In this document: positions 38,994-64,000 of the stretch, piece after piece
How positions within the stretch are numbered: position 1 is the first letter of the stretch
Layout: each line of letters starts with the position of its first letter
Assembly (NCBI RefSeq): GCF_002160915.1
Contig: NZ_NFLM01000001.1
Coordinates: forward strand, 1-64,000
Direction: 5' to 3'
DNA from: Faecalibacterium sp. An121
GTDB taxonomy: Bacteria > Bacillota > Clostridia > Oscillospirales > Ruminococcaceae
Length of the DNA stretch: 64,000 nucleotides
Notes under the pieces: generated by a model
What the model was told of the DNA's origin: nothing
The model's database searches: none
Seen by the model: the letters and a program-made list of their open reading frames with translations, nothing else
Position numbers and translations under genes: made by a program

Positions 38994-40472
38994 TTAGAGG
39001 TTGGTGTAGCCCATCAGGTACTGGTCCACCTGGGCGGCACAGTCCCTGCCTTCCCGCAGGCCCCACACCACCAGGCTCTGGCCCCGGCGCATATCGCCGC
39101 AGGTGAATACCCGGTCCACGTTGGTTTGGAAGCGATGGTCGGCGGCACAGCCCCGGGCGTTCCGTTCCACTCCGAAAGCCTGGGCTACATAGTCCTCGCA
39201 CCCCACAAAGCCCGCCGCGATCAGGGCCAGCTGGCAGGGATAGGTGAACTCCTCCCCGGTGGGGACCATGACGGTGCGTCCGGTGTCAGGGTCCTGCCGG
39301 GGCTCCAGTCGGGCCACCACCGCGCCGGTCAGCTGGCCGGCCTCGTCCTTCAAAAATTCCTTGACGGTGGTCTGGTAGGCCCGTGGGTCTTTGCCAAAGC
39401 GGGCGATGCACTCCACCTGGCCGTAGTCCACCTTGCGCACCCGGGGCCATTCGGGCCAGGGGTTGGAAGGGGTGCGCTGGGCGGGCGGCTCGGGCATCAT
39501 CTCAAGGGCCAGCAGGTCGGTGCAGCCCTGGCGCAGCGCGGTGCCCTGGCAGTCGTTGCCGGTGTCGCCGCCGCCGATCACCAGTACGTTTTTGCCCGCG
39601 GCGGAGATGGCCCGGCCGTCGGCCAGGTCCGAATCCAGCAGGCTGCGGGTGACGCTGGTCAGATAGTCCACCGCGAAAAAGACCCCGGCGGCATCGCGGC
39701 CCGGAACGTCCAGATCCCGGGGCTTTTTGGCCCCGCAGCACAGCACCACCGCGTCGTAGTGAGCCAGTACCTCGGCGGCGTCCACCGTGCGGCCCACGTC
39801 CATGCCGGTGAGGAACTCCACTCCCTCCTCCTGCATGATCCGGACCCGGCGCTCGACGACCGCTTTATCCAGCTTCATGTTGGGGATGCCGTACATCAGA
39901 AGGCCGCCAGGGCGGTCCTCCCGCTCGTAAATGGTGACGGTATGCCCCCGCTTGTTGAGGTATTCGGCCACCGAGAGCCCCGCAGGGCCCGAGCCGATGA
40001 CCGCCACGCTCTTGCCGGTGCGGGTGGGAGGCGGGCAGGCCGGCATCCAGCCCTTGGCATAGCCCCGCTCGATGATGGCGTGTTCGTTCTCCCGCACCGA
40101 GACGGCGCTGCCGGTGACGTCCCCGCAGGTGCAGGCGGCCTCGCACAGGGCGGGGCAGACCCGGCTGGTGAACTCGGGGAAGCGGTTGGTGGCCAGCAGG
40201 CGGCGGAGGGCCAGCTCCCATTTGCCCCGGTAGACCAGCTCGTTCCACTCGGGGATGAGATTGTTGAGCGGGCAGCCCGAGGCCGCCCCGCCGATGGTCA
40301 TGCCTGCCTGGCAAAAGGGCACGCCGCAGTCCATGCAGCGGGCCGCCTGGGTCTGCTGCTCCTCCCGGGGCAGCCAGACGTGGAATTCATTGAAATGCTC
40401 CAGCCGCGCAAGGGGTTCCAGTTCGGCGCTGGTCTTGCGCTGGTAATCCATAAAACCTGTCGTTTTACCCAT
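38994..40472 (-). CDS. gltD: Glutamate synthase small subunit
   Basis: GltD supplies electrons from NAD(P)H through FAD and Fe-S clusters to GltB. The 492-residue sequence has the N-terminal cysteine clusters ARCMDCGVPFCQ and RVCPALCEAACTCG, the FAD-binding motif VAVIGSGPAGLSVAEYL, the second nucleotide motif VLVIGGGDTGNDCQG, and a final CGDMRRGQSLVVWGLREGR. It lies 11 bases downstream of gltB in the same operon. A similar protein is found in other NADPH-dependent oxidoreductases, but the direct link to gltB settles the assignment. Confidence 0.96.
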   Translation of the reverse strand: MGKTTGFMDYQRKTSAELEPLARLEHFNEFHVWLPREEQQTQAARCMDCGVPFCQAGMTIGGAASGCPLNNLIPEWNELVYRGKWELALRRLLATNRFPEFTSRVCPALCEAACTCGDVTGSAVSVRENEHAIIERGYAKGWMPACPPPTRTGKSVAVIGSGPAGLSVAEYLNKRGHTVTIYEREDRPGGLLMYGIPNMKLDKAVVERRVRIMQEEGVEFLTGMDVGRTVDAAEVLAHYDAVVLCCGAKKPRDLDVPGRDAAGVFFAVDYLTSVTRSLLDSDLADGRAISAAGKNVLVIGGGDTGNDCQGTALRQGCTDLLALEMMPEPPAQRTPSNPWPEWPRVRKVDYGQVECIARFGKDPRAYQTTVKEFLKDEAGQLTGAVVARLEPRQDPDTGRTVMVPTGEEFTYPCQLALIAAGFVGCEDYVAQAFGVERNARGCAADHRFQTNVDRVFTCGDMRRGQSLVVWGLREGRDCAAQVDQYLMGYTNL

Positions 40473-40483
40473 GATATCCTCCC

Positions 40484-43400
40484 TTACCTGCTTTTCTGCT
40501 GGGCGTAGAATGCCTCGATCTGCGCCTGCTCTCCGTCAAGGCCGCGCTCTTCCATCGAGGCGATGACCCGCAGCATCCGGTCGTAGTCGTAAGGCAGGAC
40601 CTTTTTGAATTTGGGCAGGAATGCGCCGAAGCTGTCCAGGATCTCCTTGCCCCGGGGGCTGCCGGTGGCCTCCACGTGCTCCCGGATCAGCTCCTTGAGG
40701 GTGGCCACGTCGTGTTTGTGCTCCACCGGCTCCAGGCTGACCGTCTCCTTGTTGACCCGCTGGTAGAAGTCCCAGTTCTCATCCAGCACATAGGCGATGC
40801 CGCCGGTCATGCCGGCCGCAAAGTTTTTGCCGGTCTGGCCCAGCACCACCACTGTGCCGCCGGTCATGTACTCGCAGCCGTGGTCGCCCACGCCCTCCAC
40901 CACGGCGGTGACGCCGGAGTTGCGGACGCAGAACCGTTCGCCGGCCACACCCGAAATAAAGGCTTTGCCGCCGGTGGCGCCATAGAAGGCCACATTGCCG
41001 GTGATGATGTTCTCCTCGGGCTTGTAACAGATGCCCTGGGGCGGGCGCACCACGATCTTGCCTCCCGACATCCCCTTGCCCATGTAGTCGTTGCAGTCGC
41101 CGGTGAGGCAGAGGGTCAGACCCTTGGGGATGAAGGCCCCGAAGCTCTGGCCGCCCGCACCGGCGCAGTGGACGGTGAAGGTGTCATCGGGAAGGGTATT
41201 GCCGTACCGGCGGGTGATCTCGCTGCCAAAGATGGCTCCGAAAGCCCGGTCGGTGTTGGATACCTGGACGCTGACCGACTGGGGGTTCTTGCTGCCCAGC
41301 TTGAACTTTTTCATCAGCACCCGCATATCCAGGGTCTTTTCGAGGTGGAAGTCATAGGTGTCCTCGGGCTGGTAGTGGACGTTCAGGTCGCGGATGGCGG
41401 GGTTGTGCAGGATGGCGTCCAGATCCAGCTTGGCGGCACGGCCGGCGCAGGGCTTGACGTGCAGCAGGTCGGTGCGGCCCACCAGTTCGTCCATGGTGCG
41501 CACCCCCAGCCGGGCCATGTATTCCCGCAGCTCGGTGGCCACAAAGGTCAGGTAATGGATGATGTATTCCGGTTTGCCCATAAAGTGCTTGCGCAGCTCG
41601 GGGTTCTGGGTGCAGATGCCCATGGGGCAGGTGTCCAGGTTGCACACCCGCATCATGACGCAGCCCTCGGCCATCAGCAGGCTGGTGCCAAAGCCGAACT
41701 CCTCTGCGCCCAGCATACAGCTGATGGCCACATCCCGGCCGCTGAGCAGTTTGGAGTCGCTCTCCAGCCGTACCCGGGTGCGCAGCCCGTTGAGGATCAG
41801 GGTCTGATGGGTCTCGGCGATGCCCAGTTCCCAGGGCAGGCCGGCATTTTTGATGGAGGTGCGGGGGGCTGCGCCGGTGCCGCCGTCGTAGCCCGACACC
41901 AGGATAACCTGCGCGCCGCCCTTGGCCACACCGGCGGCGATGGTGCCCACCCCCGCCTCGCTGACCAGCTTGACGTTGATGCGTGCATCCCGGTTGGCGT
42001 TTTTCAGGTCGTAGATCAGTTCGGCCAGGTCCTCAATGGAATAGATGTCGTGGTGGGGCGGGGGAGAGATCAGGCCCACGCCGGTGGTGCTGTGGCGGGT
42101 CCTGGCGATCCAGGGGTAGACCTTGCTGCCGGGCAGCTGGCCTCCCTCGCCGGGCTTGGCGCCCTGGGCCAGTTTGATCTGGATCTCCTCGGCGGACACC
42201 AGATACTGGCTGGTGACGCCGAACCGGGCCGAGGCCACCTGCTTGATCTTAGAATTGCTGGCACTGTGGTAGCGCTCCTCCGGCTCGCCGCCCTCGCCGG
42301 TGTTGCTGCGGGCGCCGATCTGGTTGAAGGCCAGAGCGATGGTCTCGTGGGCCTCGCTGCTCAGGGCGCCGTAGCTCATGGCCGCCCCCTTGAACCGCTT
42401 GAGGATGGACGAGACCGGCTCCACCTCCTCCAGGGGAATGCCTCCGTTGGACGGATAGCTGAAATCCAGCAGGCTGCGCAGGTGCATCCCGTTTTCGCCC
42501 ATGTTGTCCACCGCCTGGGTGAACTGCTTGAAGGCGCCGTAGTCGTTTTCAAAGCAGGCCTTGCGGAACAGGTAGATGGTCTGGGGGGTGAACAGATGGT
42601 CCTCTTTGCCGCTGCGGAACTTGTGTTCCCCGCTGCTGGCCAGCTGCATATTGATGTCCAGGCCCAGCGGGTCGAAGGCGGCGCTGTGCCGGGCCTCCAC
42701 GTCAGCCTGGATATCATCCAGGCCGATGCCTCCCACCCGGCTGACCGTGCCGGTGAAGTACTTGTCGATGACCTCTTTGGAGATGCCCACAGCCTCAAAG
42801 ATCTGGCTGCCCTGGTAGCTCTGGATGGTGGAAATGCCCATCTTGGAGGCGATCTTGACGATGCCGTTGAGGACGGCGGTGTTGTAGTCGTCCACGGCGG
42901 CATAGAAATCTTTGTCCAGCAGCCCGTCGCCGATCAGCTGGCCGATGGCCTCATGGGCCAGGTAGGGGTTGACGGCGCAGGCGCCATAGCCCAGCAGAGC
43001 TGCAAAGTGGTGGACTTCCCGGGGCTCGGCGCTCTCCAGGATGAGGGCCAGGGCGGTGCTCTTTTTGGTGCGGATCAGGTACTGGGACACCGCCGACACC
43101 GCCAGCAGGCTGGGGATGGCCACATGGTATTCATCGATATCCCGGTCGGACAGGATGATGATGCTGGCCCCCTCTTTATAGGCCCGGTCCACTTCCAGAA
43201 AGACCCGGTCGATGGCCTTTTCCAGGCTGGTGTTCTTGTAGTAGTTGATGGACACGGTGGCCACCTTGAAGCCGGGTACGTTCATGTGGCGGATCTTGAG
43301 CAGGTCGGTCTCGGTCAGGATGGGGTTGTGCACCTTGAGCACCTTGCAGTTTTCGGGCTGGTCCTCCAGCAGGTTGCCGTGGGCGCCGATGTAGACGCTG

Positions 43401-45025
43401 GTGGAGGTGACCACCTTTTCCCGGATGGCGTCGATGGGAGGATTGGTCACCTGGGCAAACATCTGCTTGAAATAGCTGAACAGGGGCGGATGCTGGGTGC
43501 TCAGCACCGCCAGGGGGGTATCGGTGCCCATGGCGCCGCTGGGTTCGGAGCCCTGCCGGGCCATTTGCAGCAGGATCACGTTGATCTGCTCATAGCTGTA
43601 GCCAAAGGCCTTCTCCAGGCGTGTCAGCTCGTCGGCGGTGTAAGAGGGGACCTTGCAGTTGGGGATCTTGAGATCCTGCAGCTGGACCAGGTTGCGGTCC
43701 AGCCACTCGCCGTAGGGTTCCCGGCTGGCGTAGTATTCTTTCAGCTTTTCGTCGTCCACCACCTCGCCCTTGACGGTGTCCACCAGCAGCATCTTGCCGG
43801 GGCGCAGGCGGTCCTTGACCAGGATGTTGTCGGGGGCGCAGTCCAGCACGCCCACCTCGGAGGACAGGATCATCCGGCCGTCCCGGGTGATGTAGTAGCG
43901 GCTGGGACGCAGGCCGTTGCGGTCCAGCACCGCGCCCACCACGTCGCCGTCCGAGAACAGGATGGCCGCAGGGCCGTCCCAGGGTTCCAGCATGGTGGCA
44001 TAATACTGGTAGAAGTCCCGTTTTTTCTGGCTGATGTTCTTGTTGTTCTCCCAGGGCTCGGGAATGGTGATCATCACCGCCAGGGGCAGGTCCATGCCGT
44101 TCATCACCATGAACTCAAGGGTATTGTCCAGCATGGCGGAATCCGACCCGGCGGTGTTGACGATGGGCAGGATCTTGTTCATGTCCTCCTGCATGATGCG
44201 GGAGGAGATGGATTCCTCCCGAGCCAGCATGGCGTCGGTGTTGCCCTTGATGGTGTTGATCTCGCCGTTGTGCAGGATGAACCGGTTGGGGTGGGCGCGC
44301 ATCCAGCTGGGGGTGGTGTTGGTGGAAAAGCGGCTGTGCACCATGCCGATGGCCGACTCGTAGTCCTCGTCCTGCAGATCGGCGTAGAAGCGGCGCAGTT
44401 CGCCCACCAGGAACATCCCCTTGTAGACGATGGTGCGGCTGGACAGGCTGGCCACATAGGTGCCGTTGCTGGCCTGCTCGAATACCCGCCGGACGATGTA
44501 CAGCCGGCGGTCAAAGTCGATGCCCTTGGACACCTTGGCGGGCTTTTTGATGAAGCACTGCCAGATGGCGGGCATACAGTCCCGCGCCTTCTGGCCCACT
44601 ACCTCGGGGGACACCGGAACCTGGCGCCAGGCCAGGAACTCCAGCCCCTCCTTGCGGGTGACCAGTTCGAACAGCTTCATGGCGCGGGCCCGCAGGTGCT
44701 CGTCCTGGGGGAAGAAAAACATCCCTACGCCGTATTCCCGCTCGGCGCCGATGGTGATGTTCAGACCCTCGGCAACCTTGGAGAAGAATTTGTGGCTGAT
44801 CTGCAGCAGGATGCCCACGCCGTCGCCGGTCTTGCCTTCGGCGTCCTTGCCGGCCCGGTGTTCCAGATGCTCCACGATGGTCAGCGCGTCGCTGACGGTC
44901 TGGTGTGATTTGCGCCCCTGGATGTCCACCACCGCGCCGATGCCGCAGGCATCGTGCTCGAACTGGGGGTCATACAGGCCAGCGGGCGCTGTGCGTTCGG
45001 TAAATCGATCCATTTCCTTTCCCAT
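40484..45025 (-). CDS. gltB: Glutamate synthase large subunit
   Basis: GltB hydrolyses glutamine and channels the ammonia to 2-oxoglutarate, making two glutamates. The 1513-residue protein has the class II amidotransferase domain, whose nucleophile is Cys27 (HDACGIGAVVD) after removal of a propeptide. A central domain and the FMN/Fe-S synthase domain follow, with KPGEGGQLPG, VSGYDGGTGAAPRTSIKNAGLPWELG and the cluster CNLDTCPMGICTQ. The C-terminal beta-helix domain is present. Two ATG codons (45025 and 45013) are possible and neither has ideal spacing from a Shine-Dalgarno site. The operon is preceded by a promoter with a palindrome and by a leader terminator that suggests antitermination control. 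Confidence 0.97.
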   Translation of the reverse strand: MGKEMDRFTERTAPAGLYDPQFEHDACGIGAVVDIQGRKSHQTVSDALTIVEHLEHRAGKDAEGKTGDGVGILLQISHKFFSKVAEGLNITIGAEREYGVGMFFFPQDEHLRARAMKLFELVTRKEGLEFLAWRQVPVSPEVVGQKARDCMPAIWQCFIKKPAKVSKGIDFDRRLYIVRRVFEQASNGTYVASLSSRTIVYKGMFLVGELRRFYADLQDEDYESAIGMVHSRFSTNTTPSWMRAHPNRFILHNGEINTIKGNTDAMLAREESISSRIMQEDMNKILPIVNTAGSDSAMLDNTLEFMVMNGMDLPLAVMITIPEPWENNKNISQKKRDFYQYYATMLEPWDGPAAILFSDGDVVGAVLDRNGLRPSRYYITRDGRMILSSEVGVLDCAPDNILVKDRLRPGKMLLVDTVKGEVVDDEKLKEYYASREPYGEWLDRNLVQLQDLKIPNCKVPSYTADELTRLEKAFGYSYEQINVILLQMARQGSEPSGAMGTDTPLAVLSTQHPPLFSYFKQMFAQVTNPPIDAIREKVVTSTSVYIGAHGNLLEDQPENCKVLKVHNPILTETDLLKIRHMNVPGFKVATVSINYYKNTSLEKAIDRVFLEVDRAYKEGASIIILSDRDIDEYHVAIPSLLAVSAVSQYLIRTKKSTALALILESAEPREVHHFAALLGYGACAVNPYLAHEAIGQLIGDGLLDKDFYAAVDDYNTAVLNGIVKIASKMGISTIQSYQGSQIFEAVGISKEVIDKYFTGTVSRVGGIGLDDIQADVEARHSAAFDPLGLDINMQLASSGEHKFRSGKEDHLFTPQTIYLFRKACFENDYGAFKQFTQAVDNMGENGMHLRSLLDFSYPSNGGIPLEEVEPVSSILKRFKGAAMSYGALSSEAHETIALAFNQIGARSNTGEGGEPEERYHSASNSKIKQVASARFGVTSQYLVSAEEIQIKLAQGAKPGEGGQLPGSKVYPWIARTRHSTTGVGLISPPPHHDIYSIEDLAELIYDLKNANRDARINVKLVSEAGVGTIAAGVAKGGAQVILVSGYDGGTGAAPRTSIKNAGLPWELGIAETHQTLILNGLRTRVRLESDSKLLSGRDVAISCMLGAEEFGFGTSLLMAEGCVMMRVCNLDTCPMGICTQNPELRKHFMGKPEYIIHYLTFVATELREYMARLGVRTMDELVGRTDLLHVKPCAGRAAKLDLDAILHNPAIRDLNVHYQPEDTYDFHLEKTLDMRVLMKKFKLGSKNPQSVSVQVSNTDRAFGAIFGSEITRRYGNTLPDDTFTVHCAGAGGQSFGAFIPKGLTLCLTGDCNDYMGKGMSGGKIVVRPPQGICYKPEENIITGNVAFYGATGGKAFISGVAGERFCVRNSGVTAVVEGVGDHGCEYMTGGTVVVLGQTGKNFAAGMTGGIAYVLDENWDFYQRVNKETVSLEPVEHKHDVATLKELIREHVEATGSPRGKEILDSFGAFLPKFKKVLPYDYDRMLRVIASMEERGLDGEQAQIEAFYAQQKSR

Positions 45026-45088
45026 CCTCTGTCGTAATCTCTGAAAAGGCAGTTGACGGGCCGCGGCCCACTCCGCGTCCCGGCGGGT

Positions 45089-45147
45089 AAAAAAGAAAAG
45101 GCGCCCCTGACGGGCGCAGCTGGCCCGTCAGGAACACCTTTGTTCCC
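45089..45147 (-). promoter_or_regulatory. gltB leader attenuator with an ANTAR-type hexaloop hairpin
   Basis: On the minus strand the first hairpin is GGAAC-AAAGGT-GTTCC (45131-45146), a hexaloop with A at position 1 and G at position 4. Its 3' arm is part of the 5' arm of the next hairpin, a fully paired 16-bp stem (45100-45115 with 45123-45138, including four G-T pairs) followed by TTTTCTTTTTT. The two structures are mutually exclusive, as in known ANTAR antitermination sites. Only one hexaloop hairpin fits between the start site and the terminator; classical targets have two. Confidence 0.7.
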
Positions 45148-45156
45148 GTACTGTTA

Positions 45157-45184
45157 ATTATAATCCGTATTGAATCAAATTCAA
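45157..45184 (-). promoter_or_regulatory. gltBD promoter with overlapping palindrome
   Basis: Minus strand TTGAAT, 16-base spacer, TATAAT. TTGAAT-CAA-ATTCAA (45170-45184) is a perfect inverted repeat covering the -35 and adjacent spacer, a typical repressor position. Confidence 0.75.
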
Positions 45185-45253
45185 GTGACGGATGCAACAA
45201 ATAATATACCTGAGCCGCACCGGATTTGCGGCAAAACGCACAGGGACAGCCGT

Positions 45254-59713: not shown

Positions 59714-59743
59714 ATTATACACCATCCAGGCCGTCGGAATCAA
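59714..59743 (-). promoter_or_regulatory. pyrG promoter
   Basis: Minus strand TTGATT, 18-base spacer, TATAAT. It lies in the last codons of the ANTAR gene; no terminator separates the two genes, so some readthrough from glnA is possible. Confidence 0.75.
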
Positions 59744-60302
59744 GTGCATCTATGATATCCTGGGCAACATCCCCCCGGCTGCGGCGGGTGTCCATGGCCT
59801 GCTTTTCGATCAGGCGGTGGGCTTCGGCCTCGGTCATCTGTTTGTACTGGATCAAAAGGCACTTGGCCCGGCTGATCAGGCGCAGCTGGGCCAGCTTTGC
59901 CTGGATGCGGTCGTTCTCCTGCCGCAGCCGCTGCAGCCGGTGGTTGCTGGCGGCTGCCATATGGACCGCCTGCAGAAACAGCGCCGCCGAAAAGGGCTTG
60001 CCCACCACCAGCACCCCTTCCTGGTTCATCCGGGGCATCAGCTGGTCGATGGCGGCGGCTTTGGCCAGCAGGATGACCCCGGCGTCGGTCTGGTCTGCCG
60101 CGGCGGCGCACAGCTCGTGCCCGAACTCGTCCGGCAGGGGGGCGTTTACGATCACCAGCTCAAAGCCGCCCTCCAGCATCCGGCGCCTGGCTTCGGTGCC
60201 GCTGGGGACGATGACGGGCCGGACATAGCCCAGTTCGGTCAGGCGGGCGGACAGGTACTCATTGGAGCTTGCCCCCGCGCTGACGATCATCGCTCGTGCC
60301 AT
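59715..60302 (-). CDS. ANTAR-domain RNA-binding antiterminator with receiver-like domain
   Basis: The 195-residue protein has an N-terminal receiver-like domain and, after a coiled-coil (about 118-140), a C-terminal ANTAR domain (about 140-190; SRAKCLLIQYKQMTEAEAHRLIEKQAM and RSRGDVAQDIIDAL). ANTAR proteins bind paired hexaloop RNA hairpins and block terminator formation. The receiver has Asn53 where the phosphorylated Asp normally sits (LVIVNAPLPDEFG), though the switch lysine is kept (VVGKPF). Control by another route, such as binding to glutamine synthetase, should be considered. The gene starts 27 bases after glnA, the arrangement known for the nitrogen antiterminator of Clostridium saccharobutylicum. 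Targets may include the gltB and gdhA leaders. Confidence 0.85.
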   Translation of the reverse strand: MARAMIVSAGASSNEYLSARLTELGYVRPVIVPSGTEARRRMLEGGFELVIVNAPLPDEFGHELCAAAADQTDAGVILLAKAAAIDQLMPRMNQEGVLVVGKPFSAALFLQAVHMAAASNHRLQRLRQENDRIQAKLAQLRLISRAKCLLIQYKQMTEAEAHRLIEKQAMDTRRSRGDVAQDIIDALDSDGLDGV

Positions 60303-60329: not shown

Positions 60330-61655
60330 TCAGATGGCACAGAAATACCGGGCCCGTTCAAATTCGGCGGGGTCGGCGGCCTGGCGCAGCTCATCGCAGC
60401 GCCGCAGCTGCTCGGCAAAATAGCGCTGGGCCAGCCCCTCGGGCAGATACTTGGCCAGGAAGGGGCTCTGGCGCGCGGCGTCCACCGCTTCCTCCAGGGT
60501 GGCGGGCAGGACCTCCAGCCCCAGGCCGGCGGCCTCGGGGGGCTCCAGCTCGAACAGATTGCGGTTGACAGGGCCGCACAGCTGCATCCGGTTCTCGATG
60601 CCGTCCAGACCGGCGGCCAGGACCAGCCCGAAGGCCAGATAGGGGTTGCAGGCAGGGTCGGGGCTGCGCAGCTCCATCCGGCAGTTGTCCCCCTGCACCG
60701 CCGGGATGCGCACCAGCTGGCTGCGGTTCTGCCGGCTCCAGCTGACGTAGCGGGGGGCCTCGTCGCAGCCGAAGCGCAGGTAGCTGTTGGGCAGGGGATT
60801 GGTAAAGGCGGTCAGCTCCCGGCTGTGGGCCAGCACGCCGGCCATAAAGCTGCCGGGGATGCTGTCGGGGGCGATGTCCCCTTCAAAGAGGTTTTTGCCG
60901 TCCATATACAGGGAGATGTTGACGTGCAGGCCGCTGCCCGCCTGGCCGGCCAGGGGCTTGGGCATAAAGCTGGCGTACAGCCCGTTGCGCCCCGCGACGG
61001 CCCGTGTGATCTGCTTGAACGTCATGACGTTGTCGGCCGTTTTGAGGGGGCTGGCATAGTGGAAATCGATCTCGTTCTGGCCGCTGCCGCTCTCGTGATG
61101 GCTGTGCTGGGGGGCCAGGCCCATCTGCTCCATGGTCAGGCAGATGTCGCGGCGCAGGTTCTCGGCGGCGTCCAGAGGGTACACGTCAAAATAGCCGCCC
61201 TGGTCGATGGGAATGCGGGTGGGGCGGCCCCGGTCGTCGGTCTCGAAAAGATAGAACTCGCACTCGGCCCCCACGTTGCAGGTCAGGCCCAGGTGCTTGA
61301 AGCGGCGGACCATCCCCCGCAGAAAGCCGCGGCAGTTGCCCCCGAAGGGCCGCCCGTCCGGCTTCTGGATGTCGCAGAAGAACTGCATCACCCTCCCCTC
61401 GGCGGGGCGCCAGGGCAGGATGGCCAGGGTGCTCAGATCGGGGCGGAGCACCAGGTCGCTCTCCTCCACATGCATAAAACCGGGCACCGAACTGCCGTCG
61501 AAGCAGACCCCTTCCTCCAGGGCTTTGGGCAGGTCGCTGGCCAGCACGGCGATGTTTTTCTGGGTGCCGAAGATATCCGTAAAGGCAAAGCGGACGAATT
61601 TGACGTTGTTGTCCTCCACAAAATCGAGGACGTCCTGCTGTGTGGTGTAATGCAT
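60330..61655 (-). CDS. glnA: Glutamine synthetase type I
   Basis: GlnA makes glutamine from glutamate, ammonium and ATP. The 441-residue length fits the GSI-alpha type of Firmicutes. Motifs seen: FDGSSVPGF, AECEFYLFE, GQNEIDFHY, AGQAGSGLHVNISL, and RSPDPACNPYLAFGLVLAAGLDGIENR near the substrate site. It begins 163 bases downstream of glnN and is followed by the ANTAR gene. The usual adenylylation-site tyrosine region of the beta type is not evident. GAGACTGCC precedes the ATG, a weak ribosome binding site. Confidence 0.96.
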   Translation of the reverse strand: MHYTTQQDVLDFVEDNNVKFVRFAFTDIFGTQKNIAVLASDLPKALEEGVCFDGSSVPGFMHVEESDLVLRPDLSTLAILPWRPAEGRVMQFFCDIQKPDGRPFGGNCRGFLRGMVRRFKHLGLTCNVGAECEFYLFETDDRGRPTRIPIDQGGYFDVYPLDAAENLRRDICLTMEQMGLAPQHSHHESGSGQNEIDFHYASPLKTADNVMTFKQITRAVAGRNGLYASFMPKPLAGQAGSGLHVNISLYMDGKNLFEGDIAPDSIPGSFMAGVLAHSRELTAFTNPLPNSYLRFGCDEAPRYVSWSRQNRSQLVRIPAVQGDNCRMELRSPDPACNPYLAFGLVLAAGLDGIENRMQLCGPVNRNLFELEPPEAAGLGLEVLPATLEEAVDAARQSPFLAKYLPEGLAQRYFAEQLRRCDELRQAADPAEFERARYFCAI

Positions 61656-61818: not shown

Positions 61819-63912
61819 TTACCCTTCGACGTAGTAGAGCATCTGGCTGTAGCTGGGCAGCGGCCAGTATTCTTCGCCGCAAATGGTCTCGGCGTTGTCG
61901 GCGGCGGCGCGCAGCACATCCATGGCGGGCAGGACGCTGTCGTGGAAGGCGTTGGCCTTCTTGGTCATGTCGGTCAGGGACTGGGCGGTGCGCTCGGCGG
62001 CGGCCAGATGGGCGACGGCGTCGCTCATGGCGTCGGCGTCTTTGGACAGCTGCTCCAGGGTGGAAGTCTCGCTGCGGGTGCTCAGGCTCTGGCTGACCGC
62101 ACGCTTGGCGTTGATGGTGGCGGCCAGCTGGCCCATATAGGCGTTGATGGCGGGCAGCAGCTGCTTGCGGGCCATCTCCAGCATGGTCAGCGCCTCGATG
62201 TTGATGATCTTGGCGTAGTGCTCCATCTCCACCTCGTAGCGGCTGAACATCTCGGTGCGGGTCATCACCCCGAACTCCTCCATCAGCTGGATGTTCTTGG
62301 GGGCGATCAGCGCGGGCAGGGCCGCGGGGGTGTACTTCTTGTTGGGCAGGCCGCGGCGCTCAGCCTCGATCTCCCACTCGGCCGAATAGCCGTCCCCGTT
62401 GAAGATGACCCGGCGGTGATCCCGGATGGTCCGCTTGACCAGGGCGATGACGGCGCTGGTGAAGTCCTCGGCGCCCTCCAGCTCGTCGGCGTAGCCCTTC
62501 AGCTCCTTGGCCACGGCGGTGTTCAGGATGGTGTTGGCGTCGCTCAGGTTCTCATGGGAACCGGGCATACGGAACTCGAACTTGTTGCCGGTGAAGGCGA
62601 AGGGGGAGGTGCGGTTGCGGTCGGTGGTGTCCTTGCTGAACTTGGGCAGCACGTCCACGCCCAGGTCCATCTTCATCCGCATAGGGCCGGCGTAGGGGGA
62701 ATCGGAGGCGATGGCGTCGATGACGGCCTCCAGCTCCTCGCCCACAAAGATGGAGATGATGGCGGGAGGCGCCTCATTGGCGCCCAGACGGTGGTCGTTG
62801 CCGGGGGTGGCCACCGAGGTCCGCAGCAGGTCGGCGTATTCATCCACCGCCTTGATCACCGCCGCCAGGAACACCAGGAACTGCAGGTTTTCCATGGGGG
62901 TGTCGCCGGGGTCCAGCAGGTTCTCTTTGCTGGTGCTCATGGACCAGTTGTTGTGCTTGCCGCTGCCGTTCACCCCTTCAAAGGGCTTTTCGTGCAGCAG
63001 GCAGACCAGGCCGTACTTGGGGGCCAGCTTCTGCATCATCTCCATGGTCAGCAGGTTGTGGTCGATGGCCACGTTGGAGGTGTCGAAGATGGGGGCCAGC
63101 TCATGCTGGCAGGGGGCCACCTCATTGTGCTTGGTCTTGGCGGGGACGCCCAGCTCCCACAGCACATCGTCCAGCTCCTTCATAAAGGCGGACACCCGGG
63201 GACGGATGGTGCCGAAGTAGTGCTCCTCCAGCTCCTGGCCCTTGGCTGCGGGGGCGCCAAACAGGGTGCGGCCGGTCAGGATCAGGTCCTGGCGCTTCTC
63301 ATAGTCCTCTTTGGGGATGAGGAAATACTCCTGCTCGGGGCCCACGGTGGTGGAAACGTAGTCGGTGTCCTTGCCGAACAGCTTGAGGATGCGCCGTGCC
63401 TGGATGGACAGGGCCTTCATCGAGCGCAGCAGAGGGGTCTTTTTGTCCAGGGCCTCGCCGGTGTAGCTGACAAAGGCGGTGGGGATGCACAGCACGTCAT
63501 CCTTGACGAAGGCGTAGCTGGTGGGGTCCCATGCGGTGTAGCCCCGGGCCTCACAGGTGGCGCGCAGGCCGCCGGAAGGGAAGGAGGAGGCGTCGGGCTC
63601 GCCCCGGACCAGCTCCTTGCCGCTGAATTCCATGATGGCGGTGCCGTCCCCCACCGGGCTGACAAAGCCGTCGTGCTTTTCGCTGGTGATGCCGGTCAGC
63701 GGCTGGAACCAGTGGGTGTAGTGGGTGGCGCCCAGCTCCATGGCCCAGCGCTTCATGACGCTGGCCACTACGTTGGCCACTTCGATGTCCAGAGGGGCGC
63801 CCTTGTGCAGGGTGTCCTTCAGGCTCTTATAGGTAGCACTGGGCAGACGCTCCTTCATCACATGCTCGTTGAAGACCTTGCTGCCGTAGATTTCCATAAC
63901 GTTGGCTGCCAT
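61819..63912 (-). CDS. glnN: Glutamine synthetase type III
   Basis: GSIII enzymes are dodecamers of about 75-80 kDa subunits, found in Bacteroides, cyanobacteria and many Clostridia. The 697-residue protein has the typical N-terminal region ([23 protein letters not shown]), [74 protein letters not shown], and the C-terminal helical region ending YVEG. AAGGAG precedes the ATG by eight bases. It shares a strand with glnA and the ANTAR gene. Two different glutamine synthetases side by side suggest they serve different nitrogen conditions or regulate one another. Confidence 0.97.
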
Positions 63913-64000
63913 AAATCCTACTCCTTACTCAACATTGTCCATTCTTGTGCATCTCACCGCCCCCGGGCAGGGACGGGGCCGCAAACACAAAAGGCGCTGC
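63913..64000 (-). promoter_or_regulatory. glnN leader, cut by the window edge
   Basis: On the minus strand the first bases seen are GCGCC followed by TTTTGTGTTTG, which look like the 3' arm and T run of a terminator whose 5' arm lies beyond position 64000. The remaining 75 bases hold only the ribosome binding site and a CCCC-rich/GGGG stretch. No promoter is visible in this part. Confidence 0.3.

Follow-up and report, generated by a model that had tools for sequence, protein, structure and literature searches.

The glutamate synthase genes gltB and gltD lie on the minus strand of a 64,000-nucleotide stretch of DNA from Faecalibacterium sp. An121, which was analysed as a whole and is called the window here. 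They are preceded by a leader in which a promoter, a small hairpin and an intrinsic terminator follow each other closely. This arrangement raises the question whether the leader decides on transcription of gltBD and, if so, which protein reads it and how many RNA hairpins that protein needs. The first-pass annotation of this DNA had proposed an attenuator under the control of the ANTAR protein encoded after glnA. The comparative data presented here make it likely that the gltBD leader is indeed an ANTAR-controlled transcription attenuator, and they point to the same switch at further genes of ammonium assimilation.

The architecture of the leader (Table 1) is largely as first described. On the minus strand, a promoter with -35 box TTGAAT (45184-45179), 16-nt spacer and -10 box TATAAT (45162-45157) is followed 8-10 nt further on by the hairpin CGGGAAC AAAGGT GTTCCTG, in agreement with the claim that a GGAAC/GTTCC hairpin with loop AAAGGT stands within about 10 nt of a promoter. 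The two arms occupy 45146-45142 and 45135-45131, and with their flanks they form seven pairs (45148-45129). The terminator was also correctly recognized, but its stem had been put at 16 bp and extends to 19 pairs when G-U is counted (45141-45097). Likewise, the 3' arm of the hairpin does lie within the 5' arm of the terminator, yet this overlap had been understated, as it takes in the whole loop. Since the terminator begins at base 1 of the hexaloop, hairpin and terminator are mutually exclusive. The predicted fold of the leader is the terminator, with -39.2 kcal/mol and z = -4.3 against shuffled sequences. Judging from the position of the -10 box, the RNA would start at about 45150, which would make the hexaloop hairpin its extreme 5' end.

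Table 1. Features of the window that belong to the gltBD leader and to the proposed regulon
Feature	Position	Strand	Basis
gltD-like small subunit	38994..40472	minus	ORF and domain reading
gltB, glutamate synthase large subunit	40484..45025	minus	ORF and domain reading
Second hairpin with A1/G4 hexaloop AGTGGG, 3' of the terminator	45062..45077	minus	hairpin search; an alternative pairing there scored higher
T tract TTTTCTTTTTT	45089..45099	minus	sequence reading
Intrinsic terminator, 19 pairs including G-U, 5' arm from loop base 1	45097..45141	minus	folding, two-sided changes
Hexaloop hairpin (antiterminator), loop AAAGGT at 45141-45136, closing pair C-G	45129..45148	minus	stem covariation
Promoter, sigma-A type, TTGAAT-16-TATAAT	45157..45184	minus	sequence reading
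ANTAR protein with receiver-like domain, Asn replacing the phosphoacceptor Asp	59715..60302	minus	PF03861 match
glnA, glutamine synthetase I	60330..61655	minus	ORF and domain reading
Glutamine synthetase III (GSIII)	61819..63912	minus	ORF and domain reading
3' end of a second single-hexaloop attenuator, upstream of GSIII; remainder outside the window, on contig C1 to about 64048	63989..64000	minus	upstream sequence read

These elements suggest a simple mechanism. RNA polymerase would start a few bases before the hexaloop hairpin and, when active ANTAR protein is absent, the RNA would fold into the terminator and be released as a short RNA of about 55-60 nt. Active ANTAR protein, expressed from the gene behind glnA, would bind the A1/G4 hexaloop and hold the small hairpin, which would keep the loop and the 3' arm out of the terminator and allow transcription of gltBD. 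Control would thus be positive, with nitrogen limitation as the presumed signal and a single hexaloop as a sufficient target.

How unusual the arrangement is can be gauged within the window itself. These 64 kb contain two instances of a composite in which a C-[A..G..]-G hexaloop opens a terminator of at least nine pairs with a T tract, compared to 0.53 per random window (30 made), and restriction to the loop form A[AT]NG[AG][CT] leaves one occurrence compared to 0.07. The last base of the loop in the window is U, which in the isolated hairpin is predicted to pair with A1 and so to leave a tetraloop; unlike this U6, C6 is found in 30 of the 33 leaders of the alignment described below. Upstream of the -35 box, a block at about 45185-45215 on the minus strand (TTTGGTGCAGCTGTCACTTGAA-like in relatives) is conserved in Faecalibacterium gltB promoters and may be a regulator site.

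The conservation expected for a functional element is present. The nearest named relatives of the window's GltB are from Faecalibacterium species (88-91% identity; records very near the window were possibly left out). Of the gltB loci fetched from the genus, 24 of 27 have promoter, hexaloop and terminator, and in the three exceptions (L006, L008, L028) gltB lies close behind another open frame and has no leader. All 22 distinct gltB upstreams in the genus, drawn from 24 rows, have a promoter-like pair whose end lies 6-13 nt ahead of the hairpin, where shuffled sequences would give 6.0. The loop, its closing C-G pair, the overlap with the terminator and the distance to the promoter are all kept in relatives, so that a lack of such conservation, which the first-pass annotation had named as a refuting outcome, did not occur. 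Judged from record titles, the arrangement is also present in leaders from Gemmiger and other Oscillospiraceae and in some from Lachnospiraceae, although most Lachnospiraceae leaders failed; overall, 55 of 110 scanned leaders passed, a count that includes redundant and distant leaders, with some of the distant passes looking weak. In two genomes, a gltB-like hexaloop and terminator without a visible promoter (L188 in G017, L189 in G004) lie apart from gltB, which is found elsewhere; these elements are perhaps left-behind leaders.

Covariation was assessed in an alignment of 33 of the 55 passing leaders, with near-duplicates, weak leaders and L025 set aside, and this check, which had been suggested at the outset, returned compensatory changes in both stems. 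In the terminator, 11 of 18 pairs show two-sided changes, including the one between loop position 3 and the 3' arm; 95.8% of cells are paired, and 109 cells carry two-sided changes versus 28.7 after shuffling. The hexaloop stem shows them in three of five pairs, with 95.2% of cells pairing and 11 changed cells versus 2.7, and on two weaker controls its number of pairs with two-sided changes was matched by 22 of 500 shuffles and its further pair types by 76 of 500. All 33 rows have a loop of the form AANGRY, with A1, A2, G4 and the closing C-G invariant. Since A1/G4 loops closed by C-G were what the search behind these rows asked for, the invariance of those bases is partly built in, and since that search also required at least four stem pairs, so is the covariation of the remaining pairs, though less.

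These patterns speak to a first alternative, in which a promoter-near terminator is constitutive or otherwise regulated and the hexaloop is a by-product of its 5' arm. The terminator is strong, and with the loop lying inside its 5' arm some conservation of the loop follows from pairing. By contrast, the GGAAC to the left of the loop is outside the terminator and yet covaries with the 3' arm of the hairpin. Moreover, A2, G4 and the closing C-G are kept while the interior of the terminator changes freely, albeit in rows picked for A1, G4 and C-G, and the element follows the presence of an ANTAR gene, as detailed next. We therefore regard a by-product as improbable and continue with an ANTAR-controlled attenuator.

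The genome of the window, searched as 2.71 Mb in 62 contigs, contains a single ANTAR gene (PF03861), the third in the run GSIII-glnA-ANTAR. A terminator-like site was found between GSIII and glnA and a promoter-like site was not, so a common transcript of the three genes is uncertain; the switch before GSIII would perhaps carry glnA and the ANTAR gene along. Among 61 relatives, a glutamate synthase match (partial domain matches counted) and an ANTAR gene occur together in 45, neither occurs in 14, and one occurs alone in two (G040, G056). An RNA model trained on leaders of this type, R1, matched at E <=0.05 in 39 of the 46 of these genomes with ANTAR and in two of the 15 without it (G041, G058), many of their leaders having trained the model. 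In a survey of 291 genomes of the class at E <=0.001, R1 matched in 79 of the 145 ANTAR genomes and in 8 of the 146 others, giving an odds ratio of 20.6 (Fisher p 1.3e-21; the test ignores shared ancestry, and some training leaders came from searched genomes, G000 and G054 at the least). The element is within 12 kb of the ANTAR gene in at least 43 of the 79, counting pairs among the matches listed, and 66 of the 145 ANTAR genomes of the class have no R1 match.

Could a different factor read the leader? A second alternative holds that another RNA-binding protein, or a response to translation or a metabolite, acts on the element, and that ANTAR co-occurs only through a shared tie to ammonium assimilation. 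It gains from the genomes that carry the element without an ANTAR gene at the threshold used, namely eight of the 87 element-bearing genomes of the class as well as G041. A search with the window's ANTAR protein against these nine and G058, G027 and G019 returned weak matches only: the best (E 4.3e-4) covers residues 22-81, outside the ANTAR domain, one in G294 (E 0.0019) covers residues 34-148, and one in G041 (E 0.07) covers residues 88-176 with one stop inside, on contig C70. Most ANTAR-less carriers are therefore taken as real within these assemblies. Against another factor stand the frequent proximity of the ANTAR gene to the element and the character of the element itself, as A1/G4 hexaloops that overlap terminators upstream of nitrogen genes are the ANTAR signature described in Ramesh 2012 (PMC3369931). 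Furthermore, the gltB leader matches no Rfam family at gathering score, where the only matches in the window are two tRNAs. This second alternative thus appears quite unlikely. ANTAR control of glutamate synthase, as first predicted, is supported by the A1/G4 loops, the single ANTAR gene beside glnA, the co-occurrence across the 61 and the 291 genomes, and G027, a 99% complete member of the genus that lacks ANTAR and also gltB, amtB and the GSIII attenuator. In G003, ANTAR is present and the attenuator before GSIII is absent (L227). A plasmid search with the ANTAR protein gave seven records, all below 60% identity.

The protein itself shares the RNA-reading part of known regulators and probably departs from EutV in its input. 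It comprises a receiver-like and an ANTAR domain. As in the EutV/EutW system of the Enterococcus faecalis eut genes, portrayed in Ramesh 2012 (PMC3369931), an ANTAR protein is paired with A1/G4 hexaloops, AC/GU closing pairs and a hairpin that excludes an intrinsic terminator. In an alignment of 30 rows (the window protein counted twice, L057 missing, EutV numbering matched by allowing for a shift of two in its PDB chain), K147 and E158, which align to the G4-contacting residues K149 and E160 of EutV, are invariant in 30 of 30. Where EutV has Tyr164, all 30 rows have His, as does AmiR, and EutV Arg142 aligns to Leu140, which Arg141 adjoins. EutV is activated by phosphorylation according to the same source; in the window protein, the acceptor is replaced, as Asn53 aligns with EutV Asp54, so it lacks the phosphoacceptor of an EutV-type phosphorylation-activated regulator. 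Asn is found in 27 of the 30 rows, the others having one Asp, one Cys and one Gly. This replacement suggests that the input is probably a partner protein rather than phosphorylation. In AmiR/AmiC and NasT/NasS, a partner protein, not phosphorylation, controls the output of the ANTAR protein, and given Asn53, these pairs are a possible parallel.

The most marked departure from the known systems is the number of hexaloops. Ramesh 2012 (PMC3369931) defined the ANTAR target as a dual hairpin, P1 and P2, joined by a short linker and with P2 overlapping the terminator, and reported that loss of P1 or an altered linker harms induction; the eutP leader needs both with a set linker. Walshe 2022 (PMC8934654) redefined the binding motif as one hexaloop, with the EutV dimer contacting one at a time, and concluded that termination is prevented only when both are contacted. 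Both hairpins are thus necessary in the dual-hexaloop work published in these two papers. The gltB leader, in contrast, has one hairpin, at the predicted 5' end of the RNA, and lacks the two-hairpin arrangement. Of 93 distinct upstreams (42 gltB, 24 GSIII and 27 class matches, all rows kept), 86 have a promoter-like pair no more than 25 nt from the hairpin, versus 28.6 in shuffles (39 of 42 gltB, 24 of 24 GSIII, 23 of 27 class matches), and a P1-like hairpin with stems of at least three pairs occurs in four (L025, L069, L135, L262), versus 4.0 expected. Within 40 nt upstream, it was found in none of 22 distinct genus gltB leaders (0.8 expected) and none of 24 GSIII leaders (1.2 expected), and P1 with stems of at least four pairs is absent from 27 of 28 class leaders, with L262 as the exception. 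In leaders of the genus, 6-13 nt separate the end of the -10 box from the hairpin (22 of 22 for gltB, 22 of 22 for GSIII), so a transcript from this promoter could not include P1. Nor is R1 biased against P1, since the model begins with the 5' arm of the hairpin.

The first reading of the gltB site as a reduced variant with one hexaloop thus fits, and it extends to most leaders examined in the group. The upstream hairpins of L025 (gltB of G049) and L262 (before a nifB-like gene) look real, which means that dual forms exist in the class; those of L069 and L135 look like chance. In L025, the second of two hexaloops sits, by eye, at the apex of the terminator stem, unlike the published dual motif. 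A palindrome around the -35 box, TTGAA-N5-TTCAA in the window, was considered as P1 and rejected because its loop has five bases and it would be untranscribed.

A third alternative retains a dual target and places the second hexaloop downstream of the terminator. An A1/G4 hexaloop hairpin occurs there in 17 of the 24 genus gltB leaders with an attenuator, and its loop bases 2 and 3 vary while base 6 stays G (bases 1 and 4 being fixed by the search). It would, however, be made after the termination decision, and it is absent from L003, L004, L005, L024, L029, L030 and L031. Moreover, it is found in only four of 30 GSIII leaders, closes with G-C instead of C-G, and in a free search ranks as the best hairpin of its stretch in just 11 of the 24 leaders, not including the window, where a different pairing scores higher. 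We regard this option as very unlikely and retain a single hexaloop at the predicted RNA 5' end.

The same switch is found at other genes of the pathway. In the window's own genome, the GSIII attenuator just past the window end has loop AACGGC, and amtB on contig C62 is preceded by one with loop AAAGGC and three pairs. A GSIII match is present in 59 of 61 genomes, and 26 of 30 fetched GSIII leaders have an attenuator; those without are L211 (broken stem), L227 of G003 (ANTAR present), L234 of G027 and L235 of G057 (no ANTAR). For amtB, present in 40 of the 61 genomes, hexaloop and T tract precede 26 of the 27 starts found in 30 loci, a count obtained at a lax three-pair threshold and in which some may be chance, most genus amtB hairpins having only three pairs. 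Two single-hexaloop attenuators stand in tandem before amtB in L198 (G043, 441-565), and L258 is another tandem leader. The RNA model missed the own GSIII and amtB leaders, both of which were found by reading upstream sequence. Its eight rows in that genome include the gltB site on the opposite strand and L151, the orphan element described below, and five others (L152, L154, L155, L156, L157) look like ordinary terminators. A strict pattern search of the same genome gave 9 matches versus 13 in the backward control, with gltB alone convincing.

In 24 of 28 new loci of the class, the next gene downstream was read as one for nitrogen assimilation or nitrogenase, with 10 of the 28 proteins run against Pfam. 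Specifically, these genes are the amidotransferase-type subunit of glutamate synthase (13), glnA (4), GSIII (2) and one each of amtB, gdhA, asnB, gltB (962 nt away) and a nifB-like gene that falls below that model's cut-off. Of the other four loci, one each precedes a PucR-type regulator, the ATPase of an ABC transporter and an unknown frame, and one has no frame behind it. Matches were also seen before dapF and purB, genes named by eye, and in G041, which has no ANTAR at the threshold, a single-hexaloop attenuator stands before a purB-like gene (L186).

With the same switch before gltBD, GSIII and amtB, one protein would set ammonium assimilation. We lean, by a little, towards a general picture for Clostridia in which one phosphorylation-independent ANTAR protein runs an ammonium-assimilation regulon (gltB, GSIII/glnA and amtB; elsewhere gdhA, asnB and nifB) through single-hexaloop attenuators at the first transcript bases, and in which an orphan amtB-type leader of the window's clade is maybe an ANTAR-controlled small RNA or decoy. 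ANTAR control of nitrogen genes and the gene set are already known: Ramesh 2012 (PMC3369931) describes nitrogen regulons in Desulfotomaculum and others, whose targets include glutamate and glutamine synthases, ammonium transporters and nitrogenase genes. Those regulons were found with a two-hairpin model, whereas the elements here have one hairpin; what is new is a regulon in which a single hexaloop at the 5' end is the rule. In the open-licence literature on ANTAR antitermination, the phrase "single hexaloop" appeared in Walshe 2022 only, among the matches listed. That paper (PMC8934654) predicted single-hexaloop sites and expected them where polymerase sets no time limit; here, single loops are found at attenuators.

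If correct, this picture would mean that P1 is dispensable where the binding hairpin is the RNA 5' end. Dozens of natural one-hexaloop leaders make the role of P1, and its replacement by proximity to the start site, testable, and searches with dual-hairpin models are expected to miss such sites. The ANTAR regulon would then also reach Faecalibacterium, a genus abundant in the human gut, with a nitrogen switch that probably responds to an input other than phosphorylation.

The orphan element lies on contig C5 of the same genome (18320-18610, minus strand; L151 1310-1600). It has a promoter and a hexaloop attenuator with no gene directly behind; non-coding sequence follows that is conserved over about 200 nt and includes a CU-rich stretch and, later, a second terminator. 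An Rfam search of L151 gave no match. In four other Faecalibacterium-type genomes, with more in the set of amtB leaders, a matching leader stands directly before amtB; the amtB gene of the window's own genome sits elsewhere, with its own attenuator. The orphan, which is kept at 73-81% in six relatives, could possibly serve as a small RNA or as a decoy for the ANTAR protein.
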